Positions 2,227 to 41,507 of a DNA stretch of 64,000 bases are shown in pieces. The first letter of the stretch is position 1. Each line of letters starts with the position of its first letter. The notes under the pieces were generated by a model. The model did not search any database and was not told where the DNA came from. It saw nothing but the letters and a program-made list of their open reading frames with translations. The DNA comes from an uncultured Verrucomicrobia subdivision 3 bacterium. Its GTDB lineage: Bacteria; Verrucomicrobiota; Verrucomicrobiia; Limisphaerales; UBA11358. Position numbers and translations under genes: made by a program. The stretch spans positions 1 through 64,000 of the forward strand of contig CAIOIC010000062.1 in the NCBI GenBank assembly GCA_903858275.1, read 5' to 3'.

Positions 2227-2745
2227 ATGCAAAACAAAGTCGTGCTCGCGTTCCTGGACGATGTTTATGAAGACTTGGAGCTGTGGTATCCCAAGCTGCG
2301 GCTGGAGGAGGCGGGCTATGCGTTGAAATGCGCCGCGCTGGAAATCAGGACCTACGCCGGCAAGCACGGTTATCCTGCCACGGCGGATCTGCTGCTGCAA
2401 GACGCGCGCAGCGAGGATTTTTGCGGATTGCTCGTGCCCGGCGGTTTCATGCCGGACAAATTGCGTCGCGATCCGAAGGTGCTGTCGCTCACGCGGGAGT
2501 TCTTCGCGCAGGGCAAGCTCGTTGCCTTCATCTGTCACGGTGGCTGGATTCCCATTTCCGCCAAAATCCTTTCAGGTAAACGCGTCACCGGCTCGCTCGG
2601 CATCAAGGACGACCTGGAAAACGCCGGCGGCATCTGGGTGGACGAGCCGGTGGTGGAGGACGGCAATTTGATTTCCAGCCGCACCCCGAAAGATTGCGCG
2701 CCGTTCGCGGCGGCGATGGTGAAATTTCTCAATGAAGCAAAATGA
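2227..2745 (+). CDS. DJ-1/PfpI family protein
   Basis: A 172-residue cytoplasmic protein of the class I glutamine amidotransferase-like (DJ-1/PfpI) fold. It has the family GGFMPDKLR segment near residue 80 and the nucleophile-elbow cysteine in AFICHGGW near residue 106, with the family histidine after it. Members include the protease-like PfpI, DJ-1 and deglycase/stress proteins, and substrate cannot be assigned from sequence. The start is the ATG at 2227; an in-frame extension further upstream runs through the repeat and is not credible. Its TGA (2743-2745) touches the next family A arm. Confidence 0.88.
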   Translation: MQNKVVLAFLDDVYEDLELWYPKLRLEEAGYALKCAALEIRTYAGKHGYPATADLLLQDARSEDFCGLLVPGGFMPDKLRRDPKVLSLTREFFAQGKLVAFICHGGWIPISAKILSGKRVTGSLGIKDDLENAGGIWVDEPVVEDGNLISSRTPKDCAPFAAAMVKFLNEAK

Positions 2746-2833
2746 ATAAGGAAGGCAGGGAAACAGGAAATAAAAACGAGCAAGGCGCTTCGCTTTTCTA
2801 TTTTTTATTCCTGCCTTCCTGCTTTCTTTATTA
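2745..2833. repeat. family A inverted repeat, left end of GxxExxY cassette
   Basis: The left arm starts at the last base of the PfpI-like stop codon with AATAAGGAAGGCAGGGAA; the right arm (about 2801-2833) reads TTCCTGCCTTCCTGC then TTTCTTTATTAAT. A third, inverted copy lies at 3220-3237 beyond the GxxExxY gene, so the gene is bracketed by family A sequences. Confidence 0.85.
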
Positions 2834-2843
2834 ATATTAGAAC

Positions 2844-3227
2844 ATGATTAAACTGGCTCACGAAGAATTGACCGGACGCATCATCGCGTGTGCGATTGAA
2901 GTTCATAAAGCGCTTGGCCCCGGCTTTCTGGAATCTATTTACGAGGCGGCGCTGGTGGTGGAATTGAAGCGGGCGGGTTTGAGGGTGGAACAGCAAAAGC
3001 CGCTCCCGATTTTCTACCGCGAGGTTATGGTTGGGGAGCATCGGCTGGATTTGCTGGTGGAAGACAAAATCGTGGTGGAGTTGAAAGCCATTTCAGAACT
3101 GGAGGACCTTCATTTTGCCATCGTCCGGTCGTATTTGAAAGCCGCCGGCCTGGAACACGGCCTGTTGCTGAACTTTGCCGCCATGCCGTTGACGGTGAAA
3201 CGCGTTATTTATCAGTCCGTTTCCTGA
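2844..3227 (+). CDS. GxxExxY protein (PD-(D/E)XK nuclease-like)
   Basis: A 127-residue protein with the defining motif at G27-F-L-E30-S-I-Y33. D68 followed by E78-L-K80 matches a PD-(D/E)XK nuclease core, so a metal-dependent nuclease fold is expected, though no activity is established for the family. It is full length, with an ATG 11 bp after the repeat arm. Its last codons and TGA lie inside the family A arm at 3220-3237. A second member at 27517-27894 places every motif residue at nearly the same position and is also bracketed by inverted repeats of another family. Confidence 0.88.
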   Translation: MIKLAHEELTGRIIACAIEVHKALGPGFLESIYEAALVVELKRAGLRVEQQKPLPIFYREVMVGEHRLDLLVEDKIVVELKAISELEDLHFAIVRSYLKAAGLEHGLLLNFAAMPLTVKRVIYQSVS

Positions 3228-3237
3228 TTTCCTTATT
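3220..3237. repeat. family A arm, right end of GxxExxY cassette
   Basis: TTTCCTGATTTCCTTATT is the inverted counterpart of the arm at 2745. It overlaps the last codons and the stop (3225-3227) of the GxxExxY gene and ends 33 bp before nuoA. Confidence 0.75.
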
Positions 3238-3270
3238 GAGTTTATCCCCCGGCGTTTCTAAACTTTTCGC

Positions 3271-10513: not shown

Positions 10514-13500
10514 ATGAGCACATCATTGAACTCTATTGCCTTTAATAACCCGTCGTCGCGCCTTTGCCTGCGCGCCGCGTGCCGCTGGCTGATGGTGGCG
10601 GCGCTGCTGCTCGGCGTGAGCGCGCAGGCGGCCAACACCACCAATGTCTTTGTCGGCGCTACGAACGGTAGTCTTATTGTGGCGGGCAACTGGAGTTCGG
10701 GCGCGTTGCCCACCGCCGCCAGCGATGCGGTCTTTGATGGGACGGTCGGCCCGGGCATCCGTACGCTGACCAACGACCTGACCATGGGCTCGCTCAATGT
10801 GACCACCAATGCCGGCACCTATTCCATCCGCAATGATACCACCGCCTTCACCACCAACGCCCTGACGCTGGGCGGCGGCACGGGCAATTCCGTTCTCGGG
10901 GCGAATGCGCTCGACCTGATTTATGTCACCAATGGCGCCACGCTCAACTTCATTGCCACCAACAGCGCCGCCACCAACCTGGCTAGCCGGCTGCTCATCA
11001 CCCTGGCCACGAACGGCAATTTCAACATTTCCAACGGTGCTTTTTGCAATATCGGTGCCGATATCAACGGTGCGGGGTTCAGCGTGAACAAAACGGGCGG
11101 CGGAGTGTTGACGATCAGCGGCAACTTTAGCGGCAGCGGCGGGGTGACAAATTCGGCGGGTTGGTATACCAACACCAGCTTGAGCACCTATACCGGTCCG
11201 ACGGTGTTCAAAACCGGCACCACCAATGCCTTCAACAGTCTTGCCTCCAACGGTGTCGCGAGCGCCTTGGGTGCGCCTGCCTCGGGTGACAATAACGTCA
11301 TCCATTATCTCGGTGGCACTATGATTTTCACCGGTTCAGCCACGAACATCTCCGACCGTATGATTAACTGGAGCGGTGGTGGTTCTTTCTATCAAAACGG
11401 CTCCGGAAGGCTCATCCTGACCGGCGGGATTACGAACACCGGCACTCTGTCCGCCAGTTTCCGCGGCACCGGCACCATCGTGGTCAGCGGGCTGGTCAAG
11501 TTGGGCACGGGTGCCATGACCCGGACCGATGGTGGCACGGTGATTATTACCAATGGGCTTAACGAGTTTACCGGCACGCCGCAAATCTCGGATGGCAAAT
11601 TTTTCATTGACACGATTGCCAGCAATGGCGTCGCCTGCTCCCTTGGCAAGGGAACTCAAATCACCCTGGGTCAAAACGGCGTTCCCAACACGACCACCGG
11701 CACGCTGCAGTTGGCGGTGACGAATGGCAGTTTGACGGATCGCACCATCCTCATCCAATGCGGGACGTCTGGCGGTGGCCTCATTGAAAACACTTTGGCG
11801 GGCACCACGGTGACTTTCGGTGGCAATGTCAGCAGTTTCACTACGAATTTTGTGAACTCGCCGACCTTGACGCTCGCCGGCGTGGGCAATGGCGTGATAA
11901 GTGGTGTTATCGGTGCGACCACCAACACTGTCGTGGGGCTGGTCATCACCAAGACTGGCAATGGCACCTGGACGCTTTCGGGTGCGAACACCAACCAGGG
12001 CAAGACCACGGTGAGCGCGGGCACACTGCTGATCAATGGTAATTCCGCCGGCGCCACCAACACAGTGACGGTGAACACTGGCGGCACTTTGGGCGGCACG
12101 GGCACGATTGGCGGCACGGTGACCAATTTGTTGAATAGTTATCTGGCTCCGGGCGGTCTGGACTCACGCGGCACACTGACCTTGACCAATGGCTTGGGCC
12201 TTAACGGCGCCATCCTGTCCTTCACCCTGACCAATGCCGATGCGGCGGGTGTCACCTACGACACGCTGGCTGTCACCAACGGCGCCTTCGTGGCGAACGG
12301 CACCAACGTCGTCCAAATCTTTGCCGGCACCGGCACGCTGACCAACGGCACTTACACGCTGATCACCAACGTGAACACCCGCACCGGCATCGGCACGTTT
12401 GTGTTCGCCAATGGTTCCACCAACCTGGGCAACCTCTGGCTGACCAACGGCCCGAACAGCGTCGTGCTGGGCGTGACGGCGGACACCGCGAATAGCGGCA
12501 ACCTGGTATGGAAAGGCACGGTGAACGGCACCTGGAATACCACCGACGCGAACTGGTTCAATGGCACGCAAACGACTTTTGCGGATGGTGCCTATGTGGC
12601 GTTTGACGACACGGCGAGCCAGTTCACGATTGCCGGCGGGGGTTCCCCCGCCGCTGTGACCTTTAATAACAACGCCAACGCCTACACCGTCGCCGCGGCC
12701 ATTGGCGGCACGGGCGGGCTCACCAAAAACAGTTCGGCGGCGCTCACGCTCTTCGGCGCGAGCACCTATTCCGGGCCGACGGTGTTAAATGGCGGCAACG
12801 TTTCTTTCAACAGCCTGGCCTCCAACGGCAGCGCAAGTTCCTTCGGTTCGAATGGCATCATTGTGGTTACCGGCGGCGCCAACCTGCGTTTCACCAACGC
12901 CCCGACGGATTCCATCTCCGACCGCATCATCAACTGGGCCGGTGGCAATCTATACAACGATAGCACCAATGGCAGTAAGCTCATCCTGACCGGCGGCATC
13001 ACCAACAAAAACCCCGCTTTCCGCGGCAACGGCACCACTGTGGTCAGCGGTCTCATACAGATTGGTAGTGGCACCTTGACCCGCACCGATGCCGGCACGG
13101 TGATTCTCACCAATGCCCTCAACCCGTTCACCGGCAATATACAAATATTTCACGGCCAATTCTACATCGACACGATTGCCAACAGCGGGGTTAACTCTTC
13201 CATCGGCGCCGGCAGTGCAATTACCCTCGGTCAATACAGCGCTTCGAGCACCGGCACGCTGCAGTTGGCGGTGACGAATGGCAGTTCGACCGATCGCTCC
13301 ATCTTCCTCCAATGCCCCGCGAGCGGTGGCGGCACCATTGAAAATACGTTGGCGGGCAACACGGTCACCTTCGGCGGCAATGTCACCTTCCAGCCGACGA
13401 ATAATACGGTTCAGCCGGTATTGACGCTCACCGGCGTGGGCAATGGCGTGCTCAGCGGAACCATTGGCATCAACACCAACCTGCTGGCGAATCCGCCCAT

Positions 13501-16500
13501 CGTCAAAGCGGGCGTTGGCACCTGGACGCTTTCCGGACTGAATACCAACCGCGGCACGGTCGCGGTGAGCGCGGGCAAGCTGCTGATCACCGGCGATTCC
13601 TCCGGCGCCACCAACCGGTGGACGGTGAACGCGGGTGGCACCCTCGGTGGCACGAACGTGATTGGTGGCACGGTGACCAATCTGGCGGGCAGCGCTCTGG
13701 CTCCGGGCGGTTTGACCTCCCGCGGCACGCTGACTTTGACCAATGGCTTGGGCCTCAACGGCGCCACCCTGACCTTCACCCTGACCAATGCCAACACGGC
13801 GGGTCTCACCTATGACCAACTGGCTGTCACCAACGGCACCAATGTGGTAAATGGTGTTAACTATATCCAAATCATTGCGGCCACCGGCACGCTGACCAAT
13901 GGCACTTACACCCTGATCACCAACGTGAATGCCCGCACCGGCACCGGCACGTTTGTGTTCCCGCAGACGGGCACTACGAACTGGGGCAACCTGTCGCTGA
14001 CCAACGGGGCGAACAGCGTGGTGCTGCGGGTGGCGGCGAACACGGCGCTGACCAACCTGACCTGGAAGGGCGCTGTGAACGGCACGTGGAATACCAGCGA
14101 CGCGAACTGGTTCAACGGCAACAACACCACATACGCGGAAGGTGCCCAGGTGACGTTTGACGACACGGCGAGCCTGTTCACGATCACCAACGGCACGGCG
14201 TCGCCTGGCACTGTGTCCTTCGCCAACAATGTTAGCAACTATGTCGTTGGCGCGGCCATCGGCGGTTCCGGCACGGTCACCAAGAATGGCGCCGCCACCA
14301 CGACCCTGACCGGTGCGAACACCTACAGCAGCAACACCATTGTCAACGCCGGCACGCTGGTGGTGACGAACGGCGGTCAGATCAATTCGCCGCTGGCCAC
14401 GCTCAATGTTGGCTCCGCTGCCACTGCCGGCACGCTCACGCTGGCGAGTAACGGTGCCATCAACATCAAGCAACTGCTGTCCACCAACGTGGTGCTTGGC
14501 GGGGCGAACAACTCTGCCCTCAACTTCAATGCTGGCGGCGCGCTGATCACGTCGAATGCGGCAAATGCGATTGCGGCCAATATCATTGGGGCCAGCAACG
14601 CCAGCTTCTCCATCAACAGCCGTTGGACGATGAGCGGCGGCACCAACTTTATTGTTCCGGTGAATACCAACGGGAGTTTTGGCGCCATCTACATCGGCAA
14701 TGGGGTCAACAACGCGGTGGTGACGGTGAATTCCAACGCGGTGTTCAGCACGCAGAATCCGTGGATCACGAGCGCATCCAGTTCGACCAACATGGCGATC
14801 ACTATCGGCAATGGCGTCGGGTTAGGCGGCAACCAGTTGATCATCACCAATGGTGGCCGGGTTATCGCTCGGGCCAATCCAGCCAATGGCGGCGTCGGCA
14901 TCAACGTCGGTAGTGCGGGCAACAGTGGCAACAGCATCGTTGTGGCGGGCGCGGACGGTTCGGGGAAGAAGGCGGTTTTGGATTTGTCGGGTATCAATAC
15001 GTCTGGCAATGCCAACCGGCTGATTATCGGTGGAGCTCAATCCACCGCGACCAACAATTACGTGCTGGTGGGCGCCGGTGGTGTGATTACGAATGTCACC
15101 GTGTATTGTTTCAACGGCTATACGAACGGCTTGACCATCACCAACGGCGGTCAGGTTTACGCCATAGGTGTGGCGGTGGGGCGGTCGGGCTTTGCCGACT
15201 ATCTCAATGTGGCGGGCGCGGACAGCGCCGGCAACCGGGCGCTTCTGGCCGGGGCCAACAACGCCAATTTTGATCTGTATATCGGCGGGTCGGGCGGCGG
15301 ACCTGTCAATGCGTCCACCAACTGTAGTGTCTACGTGGGTCAGAGCGGTGTGGTGACGAATATCAACGCCGTCCGGGTGGGGCCGGACACGAATTCCTTT
15401 GGCAACTCGCTGGTCATCGCGAACGGCGGTCAGTTGTTCAGTTTGACCGCGAGCGCGGTGGGCGCTTTAAACAACGCAACCAACGCGAACAACAACTTTG
15501 TGACCATCGGCGGCAACTTTGGCTCCACGAACTCGATGTGGGCCATGAATGGGCAGACGTTGACGATCGGCGCCACCAATTTGTTGTGCACGAACAACTA
15601 TTTGACGCTGAACACCGGCGGCCTGTTGACAAATGTGTCGTCGGTCATTCTGGGCAGTGTGAACTCGCTGTTGACCTTCAACGGCGGCACGCTGGCGGCG
15701 GGCGCCGCTGGGAACTTGATTGCGACGAACAGCTCAACGCTCAACGCCACGAACTATGTGCGAAATGGCGGTGCGGTTATTAATTCCGGCAACTTCACCA
15801 TCACAACCATGTTGCCGTTCCTGGAAGACCCGGGCAGCACGGGCGGCGGTTTGACCAAGCTGGGCAGCGGCACCCTGACGCTGGCCGATGTCAATACCTA
15901 CACCGGCCCCACGCTGGTCAGCGCGGGCACGCTGGCGCTGTCCGGCTCCATTGACAACTCGCCGGTCTTGGTCGCGAGCGGTGCGACCTTCACGAATACC
16001 GCTTCCGGCGTCATTGCCGGAACCACCGGGGTTACCAGCTCCGGCACCGTGGCGCTCGACGGCAACAACACCTACTCCGGCCCCACGCTCGTCAGCGCCG
16101 GAAAATTATTGGCGCCCACGGGTGGCTCCTGCGCGAACAGCGCCGTCACCGTCCTGTCCGGTGCCACCAATAGCGTTCAGCTTCTCACCGTTGACGGCCA
16201 GTGGACCTGCGCCGGCTTGACGCAGGATGATGGCAGCACGTTTGAAATCAATTTTCGAATTATCACCCCCAGCACCGGCGTTGCTCCGTTGAATGTGACT
16301 GGCCCGGTTGCCCTGACCAACGTGAACATCAATGTGCACACCACGGGCGGCATTGGCATCGGCCAGTATCCGCTGATCAAATACGTTGACGGCAGCTCCA
16401 TCGGCGTCCTGAATGCCACCCCATCGCTGCCTTTCGGCATGGAGGCTTATGTCACCAACAATACCGACACTGCATCGATTGATCTGGTCGTCACGGCTCC

Positions 16501-19500
16501 CTACGTTCCCGCATTTAAATTTTACTGGGCAGGGGGCGATGGCGACTGGGATACGTTCACGATGAACTGGAAGGATACCCCGGCGATTGGCGGGGCGAAT
16601 GTGGTTTATACGAATAATACTGCCCCGGTGGTGCTGGATGACAGCGCCAGCGGCACCAGCCCCATTTTGGTGAACATCACCGCGCCCGTGACTCCGTCCA
16701 GCCTGTTGGTGGATGTGACGACCAAGGACTACACTCTCTCGGGCAGCGAAATCACCGGCACCAATACGCTGACCAAGGGCGGCAGCGGCACGCTGACGCT
16801 GAACAATCCCAATACCTACGCGGGCGACACGCTGGTCAACGGTGGCACGCTGGCGGTCAGCGGCGGCGGGGCGATTAATTCCCCGACGAACACGCTGAAC
16901 ATCGGCTCGGGTGCGACCGTGGCCACGAACACGCTGGCGGCGGGTGGTGCCATCACCGTCCAGACGCTGCTATCCACCAACGTGGTGCTTGGCGGGGCGG
17001 CTAACTCCTTCTTTAACTTCGCCGGCGGCACGCTGACCACCTCGAACAACAACGGTCTCGCGGCCAATATTATCCAGAAATCCAATACGGCTTACAATGT
17101 TCACGGCAGCTGGAACATGAATGCCGGCACCAACTTTGTGGTCAACGTGGCGACCAACTTTGTCTCGCCGACCAACTATTTCGGCAATGGGGACAATGAT
17201 TTGGTGTTCAATGTGAACAGCAGCGCGGTCTTGAGTCTGGCGAATCCGGCCATCAACTCGACGAACCAGACTCTCACCATCGGCAGCGGTAATGCCACAA
17301 ACAACGTGTTCACCGTCAATGGCGGTGTGGTGAACAATGTCAATTTGTTTGATGTTGGCAGTGGTAGCGGTTCCATCAGCAACCAGTTAATTATTACCAA
17401 CGGCGGCCAGTTCACTCTCGGGAACAGTCTCACCTTTAGCCATGTTCGAGGCAGCTACAGCTCCGTCATTGTGGCGGGCACGAATGCCGCCGGTCTGCGC
17501 GCGACTTTGGATTTGGGCGGTAGCGGGGATCGACGCATCTATGTGGCGGACAATGCCGCCTACACCGGCAATTTATTGCGGGTGGATGCGGGCGGTGTGC
17601 TCACCAATGGTGGCATCCAAATCCAAGGCTCATCTGGCCATTCCGTGGTTATCGCCAACGGCGGTCAGGCTTACTTGAACAGTGGCATTTCTGTGGGTCG
17701 CAACAGCGGCACCAGCAACTCCCTTGTTGTGGTAGGTTTTGATGGGAACGGCAGCAACTCCTTGATCAGCAGCACCGCGACCTTGGACATTGGCGGCAGC
17801 AACAATGGCGGCAATAGCGGCACGAACAACTGGGCGCGCGTGGATCAAGGCGGCGTGGTGAAATTGAGCGCCGTCAGGGTTGGCGGAAGTGGTCCAGACA
17901 TCAACAGCTTTGGCAACGGTTTGATCATCACCAACGGTGGTCAAGTGACCACCACCAATGCCAGCACGGTGGGTTCCATCACGAATGGTAGCAGCAACTG
18001 GGTCTTTGTGGGCGGCAACTTCGGCACCACGAACTCGCTGTGGAATCTGGGCAGCACGACTTTGACTATTGGGGCATCAAGCACTAACCACACCTCAACA
18101 AACAACTACGTCCTACTGGCCACCGGCGGCGTGATGACCAATGTGTCCTCGGTCATTCTGGGCGGTGTGAATTCGCTGTTGACCTTCAACGGCGGCACGC
18201 TGGCGGCCGGCACCAACAGCAATCTGATTGCGACGAATGTCACCACGCGCAATGCCGCGAACTATGTCCAGACGGGCGGGGCAATCATTGATTCGGCCAA
18301 CTTCATGGTGACGAATGTGCTGCCGTTGCTGGCAGACCCGGGCAGCCCGAATGGCGGTTTGACGAAGCTGGGCGCGGGCACGCTGGTTTTGAAAGGTGCG
18401 AACACCTACACGGGCAACACGCTGGTCGGCGCGGGCATGTTGGCGGGGGCGTCGGGCGGCTCCAGCGCGAACAGCGCGGTGACGGTTTTGGCGGGTGCCA
18501 CCAACAGTGCGATGGTAGTGGCGGCCAACGGCCAGTGGACCTGCGCCGCCTTGGCGAACAACGATGGCAGCACGCTGGACATCAACTGGGGCACCTTCGC
18601 TCCGAGTGTCAGCACCGCGCCGTTGCAGGTGACGGGCGCTTTTGACCTGACCAACGCGAACATCTCGGTGCGCGGCACGGCCATCATTCACACCGGCCAG
18701 TATCCGCTGGTCAAATATGGAAGCGTGAGTGGCACCCCGACCTCGGCGACGCTTTCGCTGCCGGCGGGCCTGGGTGGGTATCTCTCCAACAACGTGGACA
18801 ATCTCAGCATTGATCTGGTGGTCACAAACGGATTCACCGGGGTGTACTGGAAGGGGTATGTGAACGGGGTTTGGGATGACGCGGTGAACACGAACTGGCT
18901 GGGCAGCATCGCGACAATCTTCAACAACGGCGACGCCGTGGTGTTTGATGACAACCTGGTGGGGAATACGAACGTGAGCAGCAGCGCCGCGGTGCAGCCA
19001 AGCTCGGTGACAATTATCAACAATCTGACGAATTATGTCATCTCTGCGGCCATCGGCGGGACCGGCGCATTGACCAAGTCGGGCGCGGCCTCGTTGACCC
19101 TGAGCGGTTCCAATAGTTTCAGCGGTGGCGTGACGCTGAACGCGGGGACGCTGGCGCTGGGGAGCAGCAATGCGCTGGGGACCGGCGTGTTCACGATTAA
19201 CGGCGGCATCTTGGACAACAAGGCGGGCGTGTTCGTTAGCAACGTGAACAACAATTTGCAGATCTGGAACACTAACATCACCTTCGCCGGCTCAGCGGCC
19301 TTGAACCTCGGCACCGGGGCAGTGACGATTACTACTAATCTCACCATTACCGGGTCAACCAGCGTGCTGGCGGTGGGCGGTAACATCAGCGGCACGGGCG
19401 GGTTGACTCACTCGGGCAACGGCGCCTTGCTGCTATCCGGCGCGTTGGGTTTCAGCGGCGGGTTGACGAACACCGCGGGCACGCTGACCAACAGCGGATT

Positions 19501-22500
19501 GAACACGTATCCGGGCGCGACCGCGCTGACCGGTGGCACCCTTTACTACAATAGCCTGGCCAATGTTGGACAGGCGAGCGCGCTGGGCCAGCCAGCCAAT
19601 GCCGCCGATGGCGTCATCACGGTCAGCAACAGCAATATCCGTTTTATCGGAACCGCCGACTCCACTTCGGACCGCGTGTTCAGTTTGTATAACAGCACCT
19701 TCTATAACGACAGCACCACCGGCAAGCTCATCCTGACGGGCGGGTTTACCAATAACAACAATAGCGGTATCACTTTCCGCGGGGTCGGCACGAACGTGGT
19801 GTCCGGGTTGATTGATATTGGCACCGGTGGCGTGACCCGCACTGATGGCGGCATGGTGATTTTCACCAATCAGCTCAATCCTTATACCGGCAATGTGACC
19901 ATTCAGGATGGTTATTTCTACATTGATACGATTGCGAACAGTAATGCGCCCTGCGCGATTGGCGCGGGCGCTTCGATCACTCTGGGTCAGGTCGTCAGCG
20001 GGACGGTGGGCAGGCTGCAGTTGGCGGTGACGAACGGCAGTTCGAGCGATCGTGCAATTATCATCCTGGCCCAAAATGCATCCAGCGGCGGTTTGATTGA
20101 GAACACGATTGCGGGTCGGACGGTGACTTTCAGCGGGCCTGTCACGAGTCAGATCACGAATGCCTCGGTCGGGCCGACGCTCACGCTGGCGGGTTTGGGC
20201 AATGGCGTGCTGAGCGGCGTTCTGGGCATTAACACCAACCCGGCGGTGGCCATGAACCTTGCCAAGACGGGCTCGGGCACCTGGGCGATTTCGGGCTTGA
20301 ACACCAACCGGGGCACGGTCGCGGTCAATGCGGGCACGCTGTTGATCAACGGCAATTCTGCTGGTGCGACGAACACGGTGACGGTGGCCCTCGGTGCCAG
20401 CTTCGGCGGCACCGGCACGAACGGCGGCCCCGTGACCTTGAGCGCGGGCGGCATTCTGGTGCCGGGCGGATTAGCTTCCGTGGGCAAGCTGACGTTGAAC
20501 AACAACCTGACACTCAACGGCAGCACGCTCTACTTTGATCTGGGGAATGTGGCATCCGTGAGTGATCAGGTGGCGGTGGGCAGCGCTCTGAATCTGAATG
20601 GTGCGAACAGCATTCATTTGAGCTTCCCCGGCGGGCTGGCCCCGGCCGGCACCTATACGCTGATGACGATGGGTTCGACGAACGGCGTCGGCACGTTTGC
20701 GCTGGCCGGCAGCTACACGAACGTCCTGCTCAATGTCAGTGCCACGAGCGTGACGCTGGTGGTGAGCAATGGCGGCACCTATGCGGACAACTATACCTGG
20801 AACGGCAACGTGAACGGGACGTGGGATGCGGGCACCGCGAACTGGGTGAACAATGGCGTGGCGGGGGCAGTTTATGCGAATGCCCTCGATGTGACGTTTG
20901 ATGACACCTTGACGGCGAATCCCGCGGTCAGTAGCTCGGGCACGGTCTTGCCCAACTCGGTGACTTTTAACAACAGTTCAACCGCTTATACCATCGCTGC
21001 GACCATCGGCGGGACCAGCGCGCTCACCAAGAACGGCACGGCCACGACGGCGCTGACGGGCGCGAACACCTATACCGGCAACACGGTGGTCAACGCCGGC
21101 GTGCTGGTGGTGACGAACGGCGGGGTGATCAACTCGCCCTCGGCCACACTGAATGTCGGCTCTGGAGTGACGGTCGCCGCAAACACCTTGGCCGGCGGCG
21201 GCGCCATCACTGTCCAGACCTTGCTGGCCACCAACGTGGTCAACGGCGGAGTCAACAACTCCCTCTTGAACTTCACCGGTGGCACGTTGACCACCTCGAA
21301 CAACAACGGCATCGCGTCCAGCATCCTGCTCGCTTCCAACACCAGCCTGACCCTGAACAGCAGTTGGAACCTGAATGGCGGCACGAATATCCTGAGCAAC
21401 GTGGGGACCAATAGCGGGGCAAATGCGAGCGTGATTTTTGGCAATGCTGCCAATGACCGCCAGTTGAACGTGAATCCGAACGCAACTCTGTGGCTGGCGA
21501 TTCCGACCAACAGCTTTGCGACGAACACCCTGCAACTGATGGTCGGCAACGGTAATGCAACGAACAACGTGCTGACCGTCAACGGCGGCACCTTGATTGT
21601 GACCAACACCTATGGGCAGACGGTTAACATCCCTGTCGGTAACGGTTCGGGTGCCTTCGGCAATCAGATGATTGTCACCAACGGTGGCCAGGTCTTCACC
21701 CATGGGCTGGGAACCACCGGTCCCCAGGCGGTGAGCGTGGGTGCTGGCGGTAATAACAACAGCTTGCTGGTGGCGGGCACCAACGCGGCCGGTCGCAAGG
21801 CGCTGTTGGATTGCGGGTCTGACCGATGCCAAGCTGGCGGTGGCGGTGGCTCTGGCAATTGGATCCGGGTGGATCAGGGTGGTATAATCACCAACGCCTA
21901 TTTCATAGGCTACTATCTTAACTCTTCATTGACCATCGCCAACGGTGGCGAGATGTTCCCGACCGGTTTAACGGTCGGCCGGAACGGTAGCAATGTCAGC
22001 GTCGTCATCTCGGGGGCGGATGCCGGCGGCAACAAGGCGATGATGTCGTTTGTCGGTTTCGGAACCAACGGCCCTGGGGTAATGACGATCGGTGGCGGTT
22101 CTCCCAGCGGCGGTAATCCTGGCTCCAACAACTGGGTTCGGGTGGACGCGGGCGGTCTGATCACCAACGCGAGCACTATTTATGTCGGTGGCAACAACCT
22201 CGCATCCGACATCAACAATCAGCTCAACTCGCTGATCATCACCAATGGCGGTCAGGTATACAGCACGAATGGCGGCACGATTGGCAACAGCACCAACAAT
22301 AACAACAACTGGGTCAGCCTCGGTGGCGGTGCCGGTCAGTCGCTGTGGAACCTCGGTAACACGAGCTTGACCATCGGCAACCAGGCGGTCTCCACGAACA
22401 ACCATGTCACGCTGTTTGCCGGCGGTTCGCTGACGAATGTGTCCGCGGTGGTTTTGAGCGGTGTGAACTCGGTGCTGAACTTCAACGGCGGCATGCTGGC

Positions 22501-23635
22501 GGCGGGCACCAACGGCAACTTGATCGCAACGAATGCCGCGACGGTCAACGCCACGAACTTCGTGCTGAATGGCGGGGCAATTATTGACAGCGTCGGCTTC
22601 ATGGTGACGAACGAGTTGCCGCTGCTGGAAGATCCGGGCAGTCTGGGTGGCGGTTTGACCAAGCACGGCGTCGGCACGCTGGTCTTGAGCGCCGCCAGCA
22701 CTTACAGCGGCACCACTCTGGTGAGCGCGGGCGTGTTGCTGGTGGATAATGCGACCGGCAGCGGCACGGGCACGAACACGGTGACGGTGGCGAGCGGCGC
22801 GACCTTGGGCGGCAGCGGGACGATCGCGGGCAGCGTGACCTTGCAATCCGGCGCCTCGGCGACCAACACTGCGGGAACCTATCTGACCATCGCAGGCGCA
22901 GTGGTGCTGAACGGGAACCCGATGACCGTGGGTTCGACGAGCACCTTGGGAATTGGCGATTACCTGTTGATTACGAACACCAGCGGCGGCATCAGCGGCA
23001 GCTTTGCCAGCGGCGTGACCGTTGGCGGGGCGGGCTTGGCGGCGGGCACCAGCGCGACCATCGTGACCACGGCCAACGCGGTGACGCTGCGCGTGGCGGC
23101 GGTGACGACGCTGCAGTTGGTGAGCAGCCTTAATCCTTCAACGAATGGCAATACGGTGACCTTCACGGCGACGGTGCAGACCAACTCCGTTACGGCCACG
23201 GCGGCATCAGGCAACATTGTGTTCAAGGTGGGCGGCCTGCCGGTGGCAACGAATCTAGTGTCGAGCGGCGCGGCCGCATACGTGACGGGCACATTGCCGG
23301 TGGGGACGCACGCGATTGAGGCTGAATACAGCGGTGCGGCGAACTACCTGCCGAGCACGAACAGCACGTTGTCACAGGTGGTTGTGAGCGCGGGCCCGAG
23401 TTATCCGGCCACGGGGACGAACATCAACTTCACGCCGATTTCCGGCGGGAACACGTTTGATCTGACCTGGCCGGCGGAATACATCGGCTGGCAGTTGCAA
23501 TCCAACGCGGTGGATGTGTCGCTCACGAACTACTGGTTCCTGGTGCCGGGCTCGACGACCACGAACAAGGTGACGATCACGATCGACCCGTCGCAACCAA
23601 ACGTGTTCTACCGGATGCGGGTCCAGCTCCCGTAA
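10514..23635 (+). CDS. giant secreted autotransporter-associated beta-strand repeat protein
   Basis: A 4,373-residue Asn/Thr/Gly-rich protein, probably an adhesin or matrix protein (inference). A signal peptide covers about residues 1-39 (hydrophobic WLMVAALLLGVSAQA). Six modules follow, beginning near residues 44, 665, 1182, 2003, 2777 and 3428; five of them open with a WKG-NG-W-ANW-DD segment, and the first with a related NWSSG form. Two module types alternate as A-A-B-B-A-B: type A has SLASNG, LILTGG and RTDGGTVI segments; type B has VVTNGG-INSP and repeated LIITNGGQ. An Ig-like domain spans about 4200-4293 and a 75-residue domain ends FYRMRVQLP. There is no C-terminal beta-barrel and few cysteines. 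Repeats related to PATR (PF12951) suggest a long beta-solenoid. Confidence 0.9.
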   Translation: MSTSLNSIAFNNPSSRLCLRAACRWLMVAALLLGVSAQAANTTNVFVGATNGSLIVAGNWSSGALPTAASDAVFDGTVGPGIRTLTNDLTMGSLNVTTNAGTYSIRNDTTAFTTNALTLGGGTGNSVLGANALDLIYVTNGATLNFIATNSAATNLASRLLITLATNGNFNISNGAFCNIGADINGAGFSVNKTGGGVLTISGNFSGSGGVTNSAGWYTNTSLSTYTGPTVFKTGTTNAFNSLASNGVASALGAPASGDNNVIHYLGGTMIFTGSATNISDRMINWSGGGSFYQNGSGRLILTGGITNTGTLSASFRGTGTIVVSGLVKLGTGAMTRTDGGTVIITNGLNEFTGTPQISDGKFFIDTIASNGVACSLGKGTQITLGQNGVPNTTTGTLQLAVTNGSLTDRTILIQCGTSGGGLIENTLAGTTVTFGGNVSSFTTNFVNSPTLTLAGVGNGVISGVIGATTNTVVGLVITKTGNGTWTLSGANTNQGKTTVSAGTLLINGNSAGATNTVTVNTGGTLGGTGTIGGTVTNLLNSYLAPGGLDSRGTLTLTNGLGLNGAILSFTLTNADAAGVTYDTLAVTNGAFVANGTNVVQIFAGTGTLTNGTYTLITNVNTRTGIGTFVFANGSTNLGNLWLTNGPNSVVLGVTADTANSGNLVWKGTVNGTWNTTDANWFNGTQTTFADGAYVAFDDTASQFTIAGGGSPAAVTFNNNANAYTVAAAIGGTGGLTKNSSAALTLFGASTYSGPTVLNGGNVSFNSLASNGSASSFGSNGIIVVTGGANLRFTNAPTDSISDRIINWAGGNLYNDSTNGSKLILTGGITNKNPAFRGNGTTVVSGLIQIGSGTLTRTDAGTVILTNALNPFTGNIQIFHGQFYIDTIANSGVNSSIGAGSAITLGQYSASSTGTLQLAVTNGSSTDRSIFLQCPASGGGTIENTLAGNTVTFGGNVTFQPTNNTVQPVLTLTGVGNGVLSGTIGINTNLLANPPIVKAGVGTWTLSGLNTNRGTVAVSAGKLLITGDSSGATNRWTVNAGGTLGGTNVIGGTVTNLAGSALAPGGLTSRGTLTLTNGLGLNGATLTFTLTNANTAGLTYDQLAVTNGTNVVNGVNYIQIIAATGTLTNGTYTLITNVNARTGTGTFVFPQTGTTNWGNLSLTNGANSVVLRVAANTALTNLTWKGAVNGTWNTSDANWFNGNNTTYAEGAQVTFDDTASLFTITNGTASPGTVSFANNVSNYVVGAAIGGSGTVTKNGAATTTLTGANTYSSNTIVNAGTLVVTNGGQINSPLATLNVGSAATAGTLTLASNGAINIKQLLSTNVVLGGANNSALNFNAGGALITSNAANAIAANIIGASNASFSINSRWTMSGGTNFIVPVNTNGSFGAIYIGNGVNNAVVTVNSNAVFSTQNPWITSASSSTNMAITIGNGVGLGGNQLIITNGGRVIARANPANGGVGINVGSAGNSGNSIVVAGADGSGKKAVLDLSGINTSGNANRLIIGGAQSTATNNYVLVGAGGVITNVTVYCFNGYTNGLTITNGGQVYAIGVAVGRSGFADYLNVAGADSAGNRALLAGANNANFDLYIGGSGGGPVNASTNCSVYVGQSGVVTNINAVRVGPDTNSFGNSLVIANGGQLFSLTASAVGALNNATNANNNFVTIGGNFGSTNSMWAMNGQTLTIGATNLLCTNNYLTLNTGGLLTNVSSVILGSVNSLLTFNGGTLAAGAAGNLIATNSSTLNATNYVRNGGAVINSGNFTITTMLPFLEDPGSTGGGLTKLGSGTLTLADVNTYTGPTLVSAGTLALSGSIDNSPVLVASGATFTNTASGVIAGTTGVTSSGTVALDGNNTYSGPTLVSAGKLLAPTGGSCANSAVTVLSGATNSVQLLTVDGQWTCAGLTQDDGSTFEINFRIITPSTGVAPLNVTGPVALTNVNINVHTTGGIGIGQYPLIKYVDGSSIGVLNATPSLPFGMEAYVTNNTDTASIDLVVTAPYVPAFKFYWAGGDGDWDTFTMNWKDTPAIGGANVVYTNNTAPVVLDDSASGTSPILVNITAPVTPSSLLVDVTTKDYTLSGSEITGTNTLTKGGSGTLTLNNPNTYAGDTLVNGGTLAVSGGGAINSPTNTLNIGSGATVATNTLAAGGAITVQTLLSTNVVLGGAANSFFNFAGGTLTTSNNNGLAANIIQKSNTAYNVHGSWNMNAGTNFVVNVATNFVSPTNYFGNGDNDLVFNVNSSAVLSLANPAINSTNQTLTIGSGNATNNVFTVNGGVVNNVNLFDVGSGSGSISNQLIITNGGQFTLGNSLTFSHVRGSYSSVIVAGTNAAGLRATLDLGGSGDRRIYVADNAAYTGNLLRVDAGGVLTNGGIQIQGSSGHSVVIANGGQAYLNSGISVGRNSGTSNSLVVVGFDGNGSNSLISSTATLDIGGSNNGGNSGTNNWARVDQGGVVKLSAVRVGGSGPDINSFGNGLIITNGGQVTTTNASTVGSITNGSSNWVFVGGNFGTTNSLWNLGSTTLTIGASSTNHTSTNNYVLLATGGVMTNVSSVILGGVNSLLTFNGGTLAAGTNSNLIATNVTTRNAANYVQTGGAIIDSANFMVTNVLPLLADPGSPNGGLTKLGAGTLVLKGANTYTGNTLVGAGMLAGASGGSSANSAVTVLAGATNSAMVVAANGQWTCAALANNDGSTLDINWGTFAPSVSTAPLQVTGAFDLTNANISVRGTAIIHTGQYPLVKYGSVSGTPTSATLSLPAGLGGYLSNNVDNLSIDLVVTNGFTGVYWKGYVNGVWDDAVNTNWLGSIATIFNNGDAVVFDDNLVGNTNVSSSAAVQPSSVTIINNLTNYVISAAIGGTGALTKSGAASLTLSGSNSFSGGVTLNAGTLALGSSNALGTGVFTINGGILDNKAGVFVSNVNNNLQIWNTNITFAGSAALNLGTGAVTITTNLTITGSTSVLAVGGNISGTGGLTHSGNGALLLSGALGFSGGLTNTAGTLTNSGLNTYPGATALTGGTLYYNSLANVGQASALGQPANAADGVITVSNSNIRFIGTADSTSDRVFSLYNSTFYNDSTTGKLILTGGFTNNNNSGITFRGVGTNVVSGLIDIGTGGVTRTDGGMVIFTNQLNPYTGNVTIQDGYFYIDTIANSNAPCAIGAGASITLGQVVSGTVGRLQLAVTNGSSSDRAIIILAQNASSGGLIENTIAGRTVTFSGPVTSQITNASVGPTLTLAGLGNGVLSGVLGINTNPAVAMNLAKTGSGTWAISGLNTNRGTVAVNAGTLLINGNSAGATNTVTVALGASFGGTGTNGGPVTLSAGGILVPGGLASVGKLTLNNNLTLNGSTLYFDLGNVASVSDQVAVGSALNLNGANSIHLSFPGGLAPAGTYTLMTMGSTNGVGTFALAGSYTNVLLNVSATSVTLVVSNGGTYADNYTWNGNVNGTWDAGTANWVNNGVAGAVYANALDVTFDDTLTANPAVSSSGTVLPNSVTFNNSSTAYTIAATIGGTSALTKNGTATTALTGANTYTGNTVVNAGVLVVTNGGVINSPSATLNVGSGVTVAANTLAGGGAITVQTLLATNVVNGGVNNSLLNFTGGTLTTSNNNGIASSILLASNTSLTLNSSWNLNGGTNILSNVGTNSGANASVIFGNAANDRQLNVNPNATLWLAIPTNSFATNTLQLMVGNGNATNNVLTVNGGTLIVTNTYGQTVNIPVGNGSGAFGNQMIVTNGGQVFTHGLGTTGPQAVSVGAGGNNNSLLVAGTNAAGRKALLDCGSDRCQAGGGGGSGNWIRVDQGGIITNAYFIGYYLNSSLTIANGGEMFPTGLTVGRNGSNVSVVISGADAGGNKAMMSFVGFGTNGPGVMTIGGGSPSGGNPGSNNWVRVDAGGLITNASTIYVGGNNLASDINNQLNSLIITNGGQVYSTNGGTIGNSTNNNNNWVSLGGGAGQSLWNLGNTSLTIGNQAVSTNNHVTLFAGGSLTNVSAVVLSGVNSVLNFNGGMLAAGTNGNLIATNAATVNATNFVLNGGAIIDSVGFMVTNELPLLEDPGSLGGGLTKHGVGTLVLSAASTYSGTTLVSAGVLLVDNATGSGTGTNTVTVASGATLGGSGTIAGSVTLQSGASATNTAGTYLTIAGAVVLNGNPMTVGSTSTLGIGDYLLITNTSGGISGSFASGVTVGGAGLAAGTSATIVTTANAVTLRVAAVTTLQLVSSLNPSTNGNTVTFTATVQTNSVTATAASGNIVFKVGGLPVATNLVSSGAAAYVTGTLPVGTHAIEAEYSGAANYLPSTNSTLSQVVVSAGPSYPATGTNINFTPISGGNTFDLTWPAEYIGWQLQSNAVDVSLTNYWFLVPGSTTTNKVTITIDPSQPNVFYRMRVQLP

Positions 23636-23699: not shown

Positions 23700-24560
23700 T
23701 TGGCTGTTGGCTGTTGAGTTGCCCGCAGATTTTGCCGATTCCCGCCGATTTTTTTAATCTGCGACAATCTACGCCATCTGCGGGCAGATCCTGAAGTTCC
23801 CTACCTCCGATGTCTCGTGGTCCGTAGTCCGTGGTCTGCCCTCTGGCCCTTGAACGTTGAATGTTGAATGTTTGTAGCCTCGTTCCGCCGGTGGGGCGAG
23901 CGTCCCCGCGAGCCGTGCCTGTCGTTTGATTAGCACCGGGCTTCAGCCCGGTGATCTTGGTGCCCCATCCTCACCAGCCGTTTTAACGGCTTTAGTCCGG
24001 AGCGCCGTGTCCGTTCCTGCTGCGGTGGGGTGAGCCGGTTCCGCTGCCGGTGAATGTTCAATTGACCGGGGACGTTTAGTCTCTCTGACCTCTGACTTCT
24101 TGCCAAACGAACCCAAACTCGCCCGCCCTTGGCCGGTCAACTTTCCGCTTTCCCAATTTCAGCTTTCAGATATTTAGCGTTTCAGCATTTCCGCTTTCTG
24201 CTTTTGCCTATGCTGCCCTCCGCCCTCTGGACGTTGAAAGTTAAATGTTGAATGTCCCCGCTCTGTGTCTCTGTGCCTCTGTGGCCAATTAACCCCAATT
24301 CCGCTTTTGCCTTTGCGGTCTTGGCGCCTTGGCGGTTTTAAATTTTTTCTGGTTTCCTGGCTTCCTTGTTTTTTGACCGGCTCCCGGCGGGAGCGGGTGG
24401 GGTGAGGGAGAACGTTCGGTCGCTTTTAAAAAAAGCCGCAGAAATAGTTAATCGCTCTAAATCGGGTGCCGGGGAACCATTGGCGAAATATTCTTTCCGT
24501 GGATAAAAAGCGGCAGGCGGAAGTTTTCTTTGGCGCTTCAAAAAAGTTCATTGCTTCAAA
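23700..24560. repeat. gene-free mosaic of interspersed micro-repeats
   Basis: No gene is visible. The region concatenates short repetitive words: GCCCGCAGAT and its inverted copy ATCTGCGGGC (23721-23785), GTTGAATGTTGAATG (about 23855 and again near 24230), TCTGTGTCTCTGTGCCTCTG (about 24263-24285), TTTGCCTTTGCGGTCTTGG (about 24307), GGTTTCCTGGCTTCCTTG (family A-like, about 24352) and paired ACCGGGC/GCCCGGT. Several families recur elsewhere in the window inside or beside genes. Confidence 0.75.
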
Positions 24561-26639: not shown

Positions 26640-27479
26640 TTAAATCACCTTGATCACCAGCGCGGTGGTGTTGTCGCGGCCGTCGTTTTTCACCGCCGCC
26701 TCCACCAGGGTTTTCGCCGGATTGGCCTCCGGCTTCTTTTCGCGGAGATATTCCGCGATTTGCGGGTTGAAAATGCCTTCCGTCATGCCGTCCGAGCAGA
26801 TGAGGAAAATATCGCCGCGGCCGTATTTCACGGTGCCGACCTGCGGATTCACGAATTGGTTTCCGCCGCCCAGCGCCTTTTGCAGCACGTTCCGGCGCGG
26901 ATGTGTGCGGGCCTGGTATTCGTTGATTTGGCCGTTGCGGAACAGCCAGCCGATGTGCGTGTCGTCCTCGGTGATCTGGCGGATTTCCTTTTTGCCTTTG
27001 GCGAGATGATAGATCCGCGTGTCGCCCACGTGGCCGAAATACATCCGGCCCGGCGTGAACCAGCCCAGGCTCATCGTGGTCTGCATCCCGTGGCATTCGT
27101 CATACGAGTCGCCCAGATAGACCAGCGCGCGGTGGATCTGCGCGTAAAGTTCCGCCAGCACGCCGCCGGAATTAAAATCCGTTCCGCGCGCGGTCTTTTG
27201 GAAGGCGCGCGGCAGCAGCGCGGTGATTTTTTCCACGGCGATATTGCTGGCGAACTCGCCCGCCTTGGCCCCGCCCATGCCGTCGCACACGGCGAAGGTG
27301 AAATCATGTTCCGCGAGCGAGGCGTCGCCGAATTTGCCGAGCCGGTGGACTTCGTGGGCGTCAAAGCGCAGGCCCAGAAACGAATCCTCGTTGTTTTTGC
27401 GGACGCGGCCCACGTCCGTCCAGCCGAACCATTGCAGTCCATCGGCGCGGGCGGCGGATGTTTTTTTGGATTTTTTCAT
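26640..27479 (-). CDS. PP2C-family serine/threonine phosphatase
   Basis: A 279-residue metal-dependent phosphatase with the PP2C motif series VRKNNEDSF, FAVCDGMGG, GHVGDTRIY, LICSDGMTEG and DGRDNTTALV. The last two supply metal-binding aspartates. No regulatory domain is attached. The ATG at 27479 directly follows an inverted-repeat arm, so no ordinary ribosome binding site remains; an in-frame ATG at 27527 would read through the arm. It lies in one direction with a minimal kinase gene upstream, separated only by a GxxExxY cassette, and beside glnB-amt and glnII. Confidence 0.93.
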   Translation of the reverse strand: MKKSKKTSAARADGLQWFGWTDVGRVRKNNEDSFLGLRFDAHEVHRLGKFGDASLAEHDFTFAVCDGMGGAKAGEFASNIAVEKITALLPRAFQKTARGTDFNSGGVLAELYAQIHRALVYLGDSYDECHGMQTTMSLGWFTPGRMYFGHVGDTRIYHLAKGKKEIRQITEDDTHIGWLFRNGQINEYQARTHPRRNVLQKALGGGNQFVNPQVGTVKYGRGDIFLICSDGMTEGIFNPQIAEYLREKKPEANPAKTLVEAAVKNDGRDNTTALVIKVI

Positions 27480-27508
27480 AAACCACGAAATGCGCGAAAT
27501 ACTCGAAA
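27480..27508. repeat. family B inverted-repeat arm, PP2C side
   Basis: This 29-bp arm matches the reverse complement of 27901-27929 at 24 of 29 positions (outermost 12 bp identical, AAACCACGAAAT). It begins one base after the PP2C start codon and ends 8 bp before the GxxExxY stop. Confidence 0.88.
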
Positions 27509-27516
27509 GGGATCTT

Positions 27517-27894
27517 TCATAGCACAATTCTTTCGTATTCCAGTTTTGGGTAATGGGCGAAGTTGACCAGTAAGCCGAGCTTGAACTGCGTCGCCCGTAG
27601 ATAATTCTGAACCTGTGCCCGATGTTCGTCGTTCAAGGCGGACACCGCCTTGAGTTCCAATATGATTTTTCCATGGCAAATAAAATCGGGTTTGAATCGG
27701 CTCTTCAGCGGGCGGCTCTTGTATGTCAGCGCCAGTTCGGTTTGTGGTTGAAACGGGATTTTACGGTCGTTTAATTCAAGCTCCAGACATTCTTGGTAAA
27801 CGGATTCCACGAAACCGCAGCCCTTTTCCTTATAAACTTCGAAGCAAGCCCCCATGATTTCAAAGCTTTCCAATTTAAAAATGATGTCGCTCAT
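27517..27894 (-). CDS. GxxExxY protein (PD-(D/E)XK nuclease-like)
   Basis: A 125-residue homologue of the 2844-3227 protein, with G27-F-V-E30-S-V-Y33 and D70, E80-L-K82 in register with it, but otherwise well diverged. The nuclease-like core appears intact. Between the gene ends and the flanking 29-bp inverted-repeat arms there are only 8 bp (3' side) and 6 bp (5' side). The unit interrupts an otherwise tight kinase-PP2C gene pair, which suggests insertion of a cassette. Function is unproven. Confidence 0.88.
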   Translation of the reverse strand: MSDIIFKLESFEIMGACFEVYKEKGCGFVESVYQECLELELNDRKIPFQPQTELALTYKSRPLKSRFKPDFICHGKIILELKAVSALNDEHRAQVQNYLRATQFKLGLLVNFAHYPKLEYERIVL

Positions 27895-27900
27895 TTTGTT

Positions 27901-27929
27901 TTTCGTGTCGTTCGTGTATTTCGTGGTTT
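27901..27929. repeat. family B inverted-repeat arm, kinase side
   Basis: This arm ends TATTTCGTGGTTT and overlaps the kinase stop codon TAA (27928-27930, read on the minus strand). It pairs with 27480-27508 across the GxxExxY gene. Confidence 0.88.
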
Positions 27930-28314
27930 AATCGGCCTTCTCCGGCAGAAGGGTGGCGAACTCGAAATCAATCAGACAAAAGCGCCCGTCCGTGAACCGG
28001 TAGGTGACATTGCGGATGTCCGGGTCATCGTGGCGCACCCCGAATTTTTCCAGTTCGGCGAATATTTCCCGGGTGCGCTTTTCATCGAGATGCTCCACGC
28101 GCCCGCCGCAGTTGGTGGTGACGATGCGGAGTTCTTCCGGGTGGGCCTCCAGCAGGCGCGGGACGAACGGGCAGCCGCGCGCCTCGAGATGTTTGAGCAC
28201 GCGCACCTCGTTGTCGAAGCGTGCCTGCGCCTTCGGGCCGTGATAAGCCTTGAAGACCCGGCCGTCGAAGCTCAAATGGACGGTGGCGCGGAGGGTGTCT
28301 TTGACTTTTAGCAT
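27928..28314 (-). CDS. minimal protein kinase-like protein
   Basis: A 128-residue protein with a reduced kinase signature: K22 (VFKAY), E36 in the alpha-C-like NEVRVLKHLE, a catalytic loop H95-x-D97-x4-N102 (HDDPDIRN) and D116-F-E in place of DFG. A glycine-rich loop is not evident and most of the C-lobe is absent, so it belongs with small Kdo/RIO/aminoglycoside-type kinases rather than Hanks kinases. Substrate is unknown. The ATG at 28314 fits; the longer frame to 28596 lacks kinase content. The partner PP2C gene lies downstream beyond the GxxExxY cassette. Confidence 0.72.
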   Translation of the reverse strand: MLKVKDTLRATVHLSFDGRVFKAYHGPKAQARFDNEVRVLKHLEARGCPFVPRLLEAHPEELRIVTTNCGGRVEHLDEKRTREIFAELEKFGVRHDDPDIRNVTYRFTDGRFCLIDFEFATLLPEKAD

Positions 28315-28518: not shown

Positions 28519-28607
28519 TAAAATAAAAAGATACAGGTTCAACCAAAAGTGATGAAGCTTTCGGACTGAGCAGCCTGTTTGAACCGATAACCACAACCAC
28601 CATTCAC

Positions 28608-41366: not shown

Positions 41367-41507
41367 AATAAGGAAGGCAGGAAAGCAGGAAACGTCGCCC
41401 GCCGATAGCACCGCTGCCCGTGGATTCTTAAGCAAGAATGATTTTAATCGGCGAAAATCGGCGCAATCTGCGGTTAGTGTCTTTGCAGGCTTCCTGTCTT
41501 TACTTCC
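41367..41507. repeat. family A repeat between trpS and recF
   Basis: A well-preserved arm (41367-41392, AATAAGGAAGGCAGGAAAGC) faces a degraded counterpart TTCCTGTCTTTACTTCC (41491-41507) that overlaps the last recF codons. Between them, 41439-41475 carries AATCGGCG/AATCTGCGG words like those at 23721-23785. Confidence 0.65.

Follow-up and report, generated by a model that had tools for sequence, protein, structure and literature searches.

GxxExxY genes, which encode nuclease-like proteins, are associated across their family with matched palindromic ends, with matched palindromes that carry no gene, and with sites that are occupied in some genomes and unoccupied in others. The best reading of this association is a palindrome system that works like REPIN-RAYT with an unrelated nuclease of the PD-(D/E)XK type. 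We infer that the GxxExxY nuclease probably cleaves its own palindrome and is the driver of its spread.

In the window, the whole stretch of 64,000 nucleotides analysed here, a minus-strand gene at 27517..27894 encodes a PD-(D/E)XK nuclease-like GxxExxY protein of 125 aa, which scores 139.4 bits against TIGR04256 and 138 bits against PF13366, far above the curated cut-offs of 35 and 22, respectively. Along the minus strand, it follows a gene for a kinase-like protein (27928..28314, minus strand; weak APH/Kdo/Bud32 matches, start of the longest ORF at 28596) and precedes that of a PP2C-type phosphatase (26640..27479, minus strand; PF13672), the host gene bordering the insertion. A single pair of inverted-repeat arms, 30 nt long and 83% complementary, encloses it, at 27479..27508 on the PP2C side (plus strand, degenerate CACGAAA-type units) and at 27901..27930 on the kinase side (plus strand). 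Read inward, the kinase-side arm consists of three units with a period of nine, CCACGAAAT-ACACGAACG-ACACGAAAA, and holds the kinase stop codon (27928-27930); the other arm adjoins the PP2C ATG (27479-27477), the A of which is included in the 30-nt version of the arm. An earlier note on this DNA had described arms of 29 bp with 24 of 29 positions complementary, which are the same pair minus one edge base. Its distances of 8 and 6 bp between arms and gene ends were reproduced with the gene at 27517-27894, and the coordinates agree with its placing of the kinase stop codon in one arm and of the other arm up against the PP2C start. The arm score of 35 exceeded all 115 shuffled controls (maximum 22) and, compared with 227 mismatched flank pairs, lay above the 95th percentile (27) and below the 99th (40).

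A sister element, termed family A, occupies roughly 2740-3243 of the window. A complete palindrome of CAGGAAA units (2740..2829) stands upstream of its GxxExxY gene (L054; 2844..3227, plus strand, 139.5 bits), and a downstream half-palindrome (3220..3243, plus strand) overlaps the gene end. The arms around the kinase-PP2C insertion had been called unrelated to family A: their letters do differ (CACGAAA versus CAGGAAA units), but the architecture of repeated units is common to both, and the two are spellings of one architecture that recurs across the GxxExxY family. G016 and G017 carry the family A insertion at the orthologous site, as very likely does G024, where the gene and the next gene match. 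The insertion is degraded in G034 and missing from G004, G012, G014, G018, G020, G027, G028 and G029, where the gap measures 16-53 bp; in G009 and G035, the same gap holds instead palindromes that look CGCAGAG-like by eye. The remnant in G034 (L290, on G034:C18) is a truncated GxxExxY gene, a decaying copy. More arms, in CAGGAAA and CACAGAG spellings, lie at 689-706, 2184-2201, 24269-24285 and 41367-41384 of the window.

Of the 59 genomes sampled (own genome included), 39 yielded the kinase, and we read its locus in the window's genome and at 29 loci of relatives. PP2C followed the kinase at all 29 relatives' loci (fused to it in L032) and a GxxExxY gene lay between the two at none of them (0/29), which rules out the gene as a conserved member of this operon and bears out its earlier description as an insertion. 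That it had landed in a two-gene operon holds as far as the pair without the gene in relatives is concerned; the landing itself is read from presence and absence, as is all movement considered here, and no transposition was observed. Nine of the 29 relatives carry gene-free palindromes at the junction, similar in style to those of the window by eye, with types also assigned by eye: five of the CRCGAA type, like the window's arms (L010, L018, L020, L022, L025), three of the GCGAAGG type (L007, L012, L014) and one of the GCCAAGG type (L017). On a midpoint-rooted kinase+PP2C tree, Fitch parsimony required 7 changes for palindrome presence or absence and 9 for palindrome types; the genome that is sister to the window's carries a junction palindrome of another type. 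The junction is thus a repeated target, at which the GxxExxY gene is an addition. A further claim, that the insertion had replaced the PP2C ribosome binding site, proved not to be demonstrable: kinase stop and PP2C start overlap as ATGA in five relatives (L011, L023, L024, L027, L035), so that there was possibly no separate site to replace. The fused gene of L032 (G044:C93), one open frame of 493 codons, fits a functional pairing of kinase and phosphatase.

Beyond this junction, 50 of the 59 genomes have GxxExxY genes among the matches listed, with five in the window's own genome. The 114 loci read are the best-scoring of the matches listed, including the own five and mostly excluding low-scoring or broken copies; they hold 116 ORFs, of which 115 had enough flank and one was excluded. 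Among these copies from best-scoring loci, the inverted repeats on either side of the gene outscore all shuffled controls in 94/115 and, in 86/115, lie above the 95th percentile for mismatched flank pairs; the arms of the other 21 do not score above shuffles. Control loci of the same genomes had arm scores above 22 in 1/30 cases for the kinase and 2/29 for PP2C. The typical arm is made of three tandem 8-10-bp units of the C-R-N-R-A-x kind, and the spellings read include CACGAAA, CGCGAAA, CACGGAT, CACAGAT, CGCAGATT, CACAGAG, CGCAAAG, GCGAAGG, CAGGAAA and others. A strict regular expression for CRNRAD tandems matched on both sides of 41/115 GxxExxY copies versus 4.9 expected from shuffles, and on both sides of 2/31 four-helix, 3/30 RAYT, 2/30 kinase and 6/29 PP2C control loci, the last count being due in part to the kinase-PP2C junction palindromes.

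At 60 element edges, direct repeats of 3-5 bp were not notably in excess, and for 2-bp repeats the largest excess was 12 versus 5, at one of 25 offsets tried. Same-genome GxxExxY pairs fell below 50% identity in 135 of 143 cases, none of the copies read is a recent cassette duplicate within a genome, and the outer flanks of many copies are homologous from genome to genome (27 clusters), so that the full cassette seems to move rarely or to have moved long ago. An rRNA intervening sequence was rejected, none of 13 loci having matched Rfam at gathering thresholds, as was a phage origin, viral contigs yielding one distant locus.

The earlier suggestion that two related nucleases are each matched to their own palindrome family was borne out by a correlation between clade and unit, including in named genomes of several phyla. 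Protein identity correlated with flank similarity in pairs from different genomes (r = 0.446, 0/2000 permutations; 0.164 for far flanks). Because 100 pairs have homologous outer flanks, these syntenic pairs were removed and the flank was limited to non-coding sequence, which gave r = 0.269 (0/2000 permutations, largest permuted value 0.048); for flanks 280-500 bp off, again with syntenic pairs removed, r was 0.014. The window protein groups with L116, L072 and L081, all with CACGAAA arms, and then with CGCGAAA and CGCGAAT elements.

As a prediction test, the window's clade was searched in named genomes, yielding 80 loci, 78 of them usable after two with short flanks (L315 and L352) were dropped. 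Their titles cover Verrucomicrobiota, Planctomycetota, Kiritimatiellota and Lentisphaerota, plus single MAGs titled Calditrichota, Hydrogenedentota, Chloracidobacterium and Desulfobacterales (the last dropped for its short flank); a few titles look wrong, e.g. Klebsiella. CRCGAA occurred at least twice beside the gene in 67/78 loci versus 3/78 at distance, and arms exceeded shuffles in 70/78. Six of the 78 are identical to copies already in the 59-genome set, and the 72 new loci gave 61 with CRCGAA at least twice near the gene, 3 far from it and 65 with arms above 22. Within a locus, the two arms agree better (median 44) than arms taken from different loci do (median 22); as one unit is common to all named loci, only 36/78 score above the 95th percentile for mismatched pairs.

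Gene-free palindromes show the same pairing in their numbers, more weakly. Arm patterns of five spellings occur in 46, 15, 28, 21 and 26 of the 59 genomes, with zero matches except one for the reversed control pattern, and solo arms reach tens of copies per genome. Thirty F1 loci were read: several are hairpins of about 80 bp (arm, loop of 9-25 bases, arm), and other arms are without a clear partner. With each cassette's own two arms subtracted, solo arms were more numerous where the matching nuclease is present for families F1, F3, F5 and F6 (one-sided p = 0.011, 0.010, 0.0004 and 0.006, respectively, within genus), and not significantly so for F7 in genomes with the F7 nuclease (p = 0.30, within genus); clades were assigned to families from cassette arms, and the group without the nuclease may contain unread copies. 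When family labels were shuffled among the same genomes, own arms subtracted, the observed value was reached in 21 of 10,000 shuffles. Nine of the 59 genomes have no GxxExxY among the matches listed, some of them palindrome-rich: G050 has 36 F1 arms, and G057 and G010 have 50 and 10 F7 arms. Palindromes hence persist, or are moved, without GxxExxY there. In G050, a core of about 160 bp is repeated in several copies between outward-facing CRCGAA arms (L264, L266, L267), and at G017:C49:22809-23120 (L396), three AATAAGGAAGGCAGGAAA arms in the same direction with a spacing of exactly 147 bp form a local tandem amplification.

The AlphaFold2 model of the window's GxxExxY protein has a mean pLDDT of 94.9. 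The nearest solved fold by Foldseek is that of SSO0001 (PDB 4ic1; E 4.4e-4, probability 1.00, TM 0.54 by query length), which we take to be a Cas4 nuclease. Residues E30, E40, D70, E80, K82 and Q94 are invariant in 43 sequences, and Y98 is nearly so; we take them to be the PD-(D/E)XK motif of the RecB/Cas4 type (D-ExK, QxxxY). Modelled fold and residues fit an active nuclease of this type, which would cleave DNA. T7 endonuclease I gave the best PDB profile match, at a non-significant E of 0.28, and a sequence relation to it was rejected.

In the element we propose, a small PD-(D/E)XK nuclease-like GxxExxY gene would sit inside a palindrome with about three tandem 8-10-bp units per arm, nuclease and unit spelling forming a matched pair, and the gene-free intergenic palindromes of about 80 bp with the same spelling would be its non-autonomous copies. 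Most likely, the nuclease would recognise its own units, the palindrome probably having folded into a hairpin or cruciform, and would cut there; repair at the cut would then insert or copy palindromes to new sites, often gene ends, with the nuclease as putative driver.

The main doubt is whether GxxExxY is this driver or the best-fitting passenger, since other genes were found in the same position. In G037, a SUKH gene (L275) and a DUF4279 gene (L276) lie between half-palindromes of matching spelling, as do an EVE-like/REase_II-like gene of 381 aa in G012 (L279) and, in G028, an EVE-like/HNH gene with CACAGAG arms (L392); the EVE matches, 17 for L279 and 18.9 for L392, are below the Pfam cut-off of 23. 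The loci in G012 (L279, G012:C40) and G028 (L392/L402, G028:C21) share the same site, by their flanks, and the same arm spelling. In G027 (L403, G027:C130), an HNH gene 89% identical to that of L392 lies at what by eye is the same site, within weaker arms (score 22) of the CGCAAAG type, unlike the CACAGAG arms of G028. This intergenic site is possibly a defence-gene exchange site. At another junction, GxxExxY genes of two clades are found in different genomes (L048, L043, L074, L076 and L089 versus L061 and L062), downstream of what we take, by translation, to be the 3' end of gltB; other flanking genes, likewise named by translation, are presumably PfpI-like, ndhC and an oxidoreductase. Given these varied genes and arm spellings at the same sites, the sites seem to exchange both their arms and their contents.

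Such loci are what would be expected if other machinery moved the arms and GxxExxY were a frequent cargo, profiting from the arms or protecting them without driving them. In favour of this are the four other genes between arms of the same kind, the EVE-like/HNH gene at apparently one site in differently spelled arms, and the palindrome-rich genomes without GxxExxY among the matches listed. Nothing obliges a cargo, however, to agree with its arms in spelling, whereas unit spelling varies along with GxxExxY clade and the nuclease type predicts the number of solo arms. The EVE-like/HNH gene is no regular partner of arms: its six long matches comprise one with strong arms, one with weak arms, and four more distant or displaced relatives (L404-L407) without arms above background. 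RAYT, the obvious alternative driver, has different palindromes. We therefore consider a mere passenger role unlikely.

The palindromes might also be terminators or operators, with a host nuclease regulating itself through flanking hairpins and nothing moving at all. They often abut stop codons, and cassettes are mostly co-directional with their neighbours (30 of the 37 sites whose neighbours share a direction, by a longest-ORF rule), as this account would have it. It is nevertheless improbable in view of the gene-less solo arms, up to tens per genome, of single junctions that are empty, palindromic or occupied in related genomes, and of the other genes found between such arms. That REP palindromes moved by IS200-like Y1 transposases account for the arms, GxxExxY being incidental, is very improbable and was rejected for the different palindromes at Y1_Tnp genes: these genes do match in 52/59 genomes of the set, and 20 of the 30 read lie between inverted repeats that score above 22, but the 30 flanks are other sequences, mostly stems like those of classic REPs (e.g. 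GTCCCGTCAGGGACGA, AATAGCCCGGCGTTTCAACGCCGGG), with CRNRAD tandems on both sides in 3/30, and G053 has 10 F1 and 22 F7 arms with no Y1_Tnp match.

A driving GxxExxY nuclease would resemble several known systems in part. REPtrons/TIRtrons, described in PMC3733652, are REPIN-RAYT systems with tyrosine transposases. The GxxExxY system is like them in that palindromes flank one nuclease gene, different nuclease genes have different palindromes, and many intergenic gene-free palindromes match the flanks of the gene (PMC3733652). Unlike REPIN-RAYT as described there, its enzyme is of the PD-(D/E)XK type and no Y1 tyrosine transposase, the gene matching only GxxExxY/PDDEXK_3, and its arms, judged by reading, are CRNRAD-type tandem units rather than GTAG/CGTC-tagged stems. 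The defining features of REPIN-RAYT are thus absent from the system, which would nevertheless work in a similar way. With Cas4/RecB nucleases, the protein shares the Cas4-type fold, as predicted by its model, and the conserved D-ExK and QxxxY residues; it differs from SSO0001, to which it is 19-20% identical, in being shorter (125 versus about 202 residues). Its gene neighbours at this locus are the kinase and PP2C. Like the MITEs and solo elements of DDE transposons, gene-less short inverted-repeat elements stand beside a gene-bearing version; unlike them, no target duplication was detected, no transposase gene lies between the window arms, and the ends are made of repeated units. The window protein clearly belongs to the families GxxExxY (TIGR04256) and PDDEXK_3 (PF13366), whose models supply no more than a name and a nuclease superfamily. 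In the literature searched, whose scope stops short of preprints and most subscription journals, no description of palindromic ends of GxxExxY or of a similar system and no paper with any of six unit strings was found; where GxxExxY is mentioned there, it is in passing.

If the GxxExxY nuclease is the driver, a family that so far has no more than the name 'GxxExxY protein' would be given a role, and, with a PD-(D/E)XK (Cas4/RecB-like) nuclease as the partner of a mobile palindrome, a REPIN-RAYT-like life style would have arisen independently. Recognition could be decoded from the many enzyme-target pairs that occur naturally in this matched series of nucleases and units, and the palindromes explain a set of intergenic repeats that reach tens of arms in some genomes. 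More tentatively, and at a little short of even chances in our judgement, GxxExxY proteins may act as the enzymes for mobile palindromes of a large class that spans many phyla, each nuclease lineage reading its own repeated unit in a natural recognition code. On this reading, the palindromes would double as interchangeable landing sites, by way of which single genes, restriction-type defence genes among them, enter and leave recurrent junctions.

Genes of the four-helix-bundle family TIGR02436, which we take to be the 23S rRNA intervening-sequence family, have flanking inverted repeats above 22 in 15/31 loci read in the same genomes. Like GxxExxY, they are multicopy small genes with flanking inverted repeats (loci L146-L175; 8 copies in G000). 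Unlike GxxExxY, they encode an unrelated protein and their tandem units are GTTGAG/GTTCAG-like (GTTSAR-like), a class judged by eye, the strict motif matching on both sides in only 2/31 loci. TIGR02436 is perhaps a third pairing of protein and palindrome beside RAYT and GxxExxY. Elsewhere in the window, an open frame of 4373 aa at 10514-23635 contains many similar repeats, which presumably resemble autotransporter-type passenger repeats.
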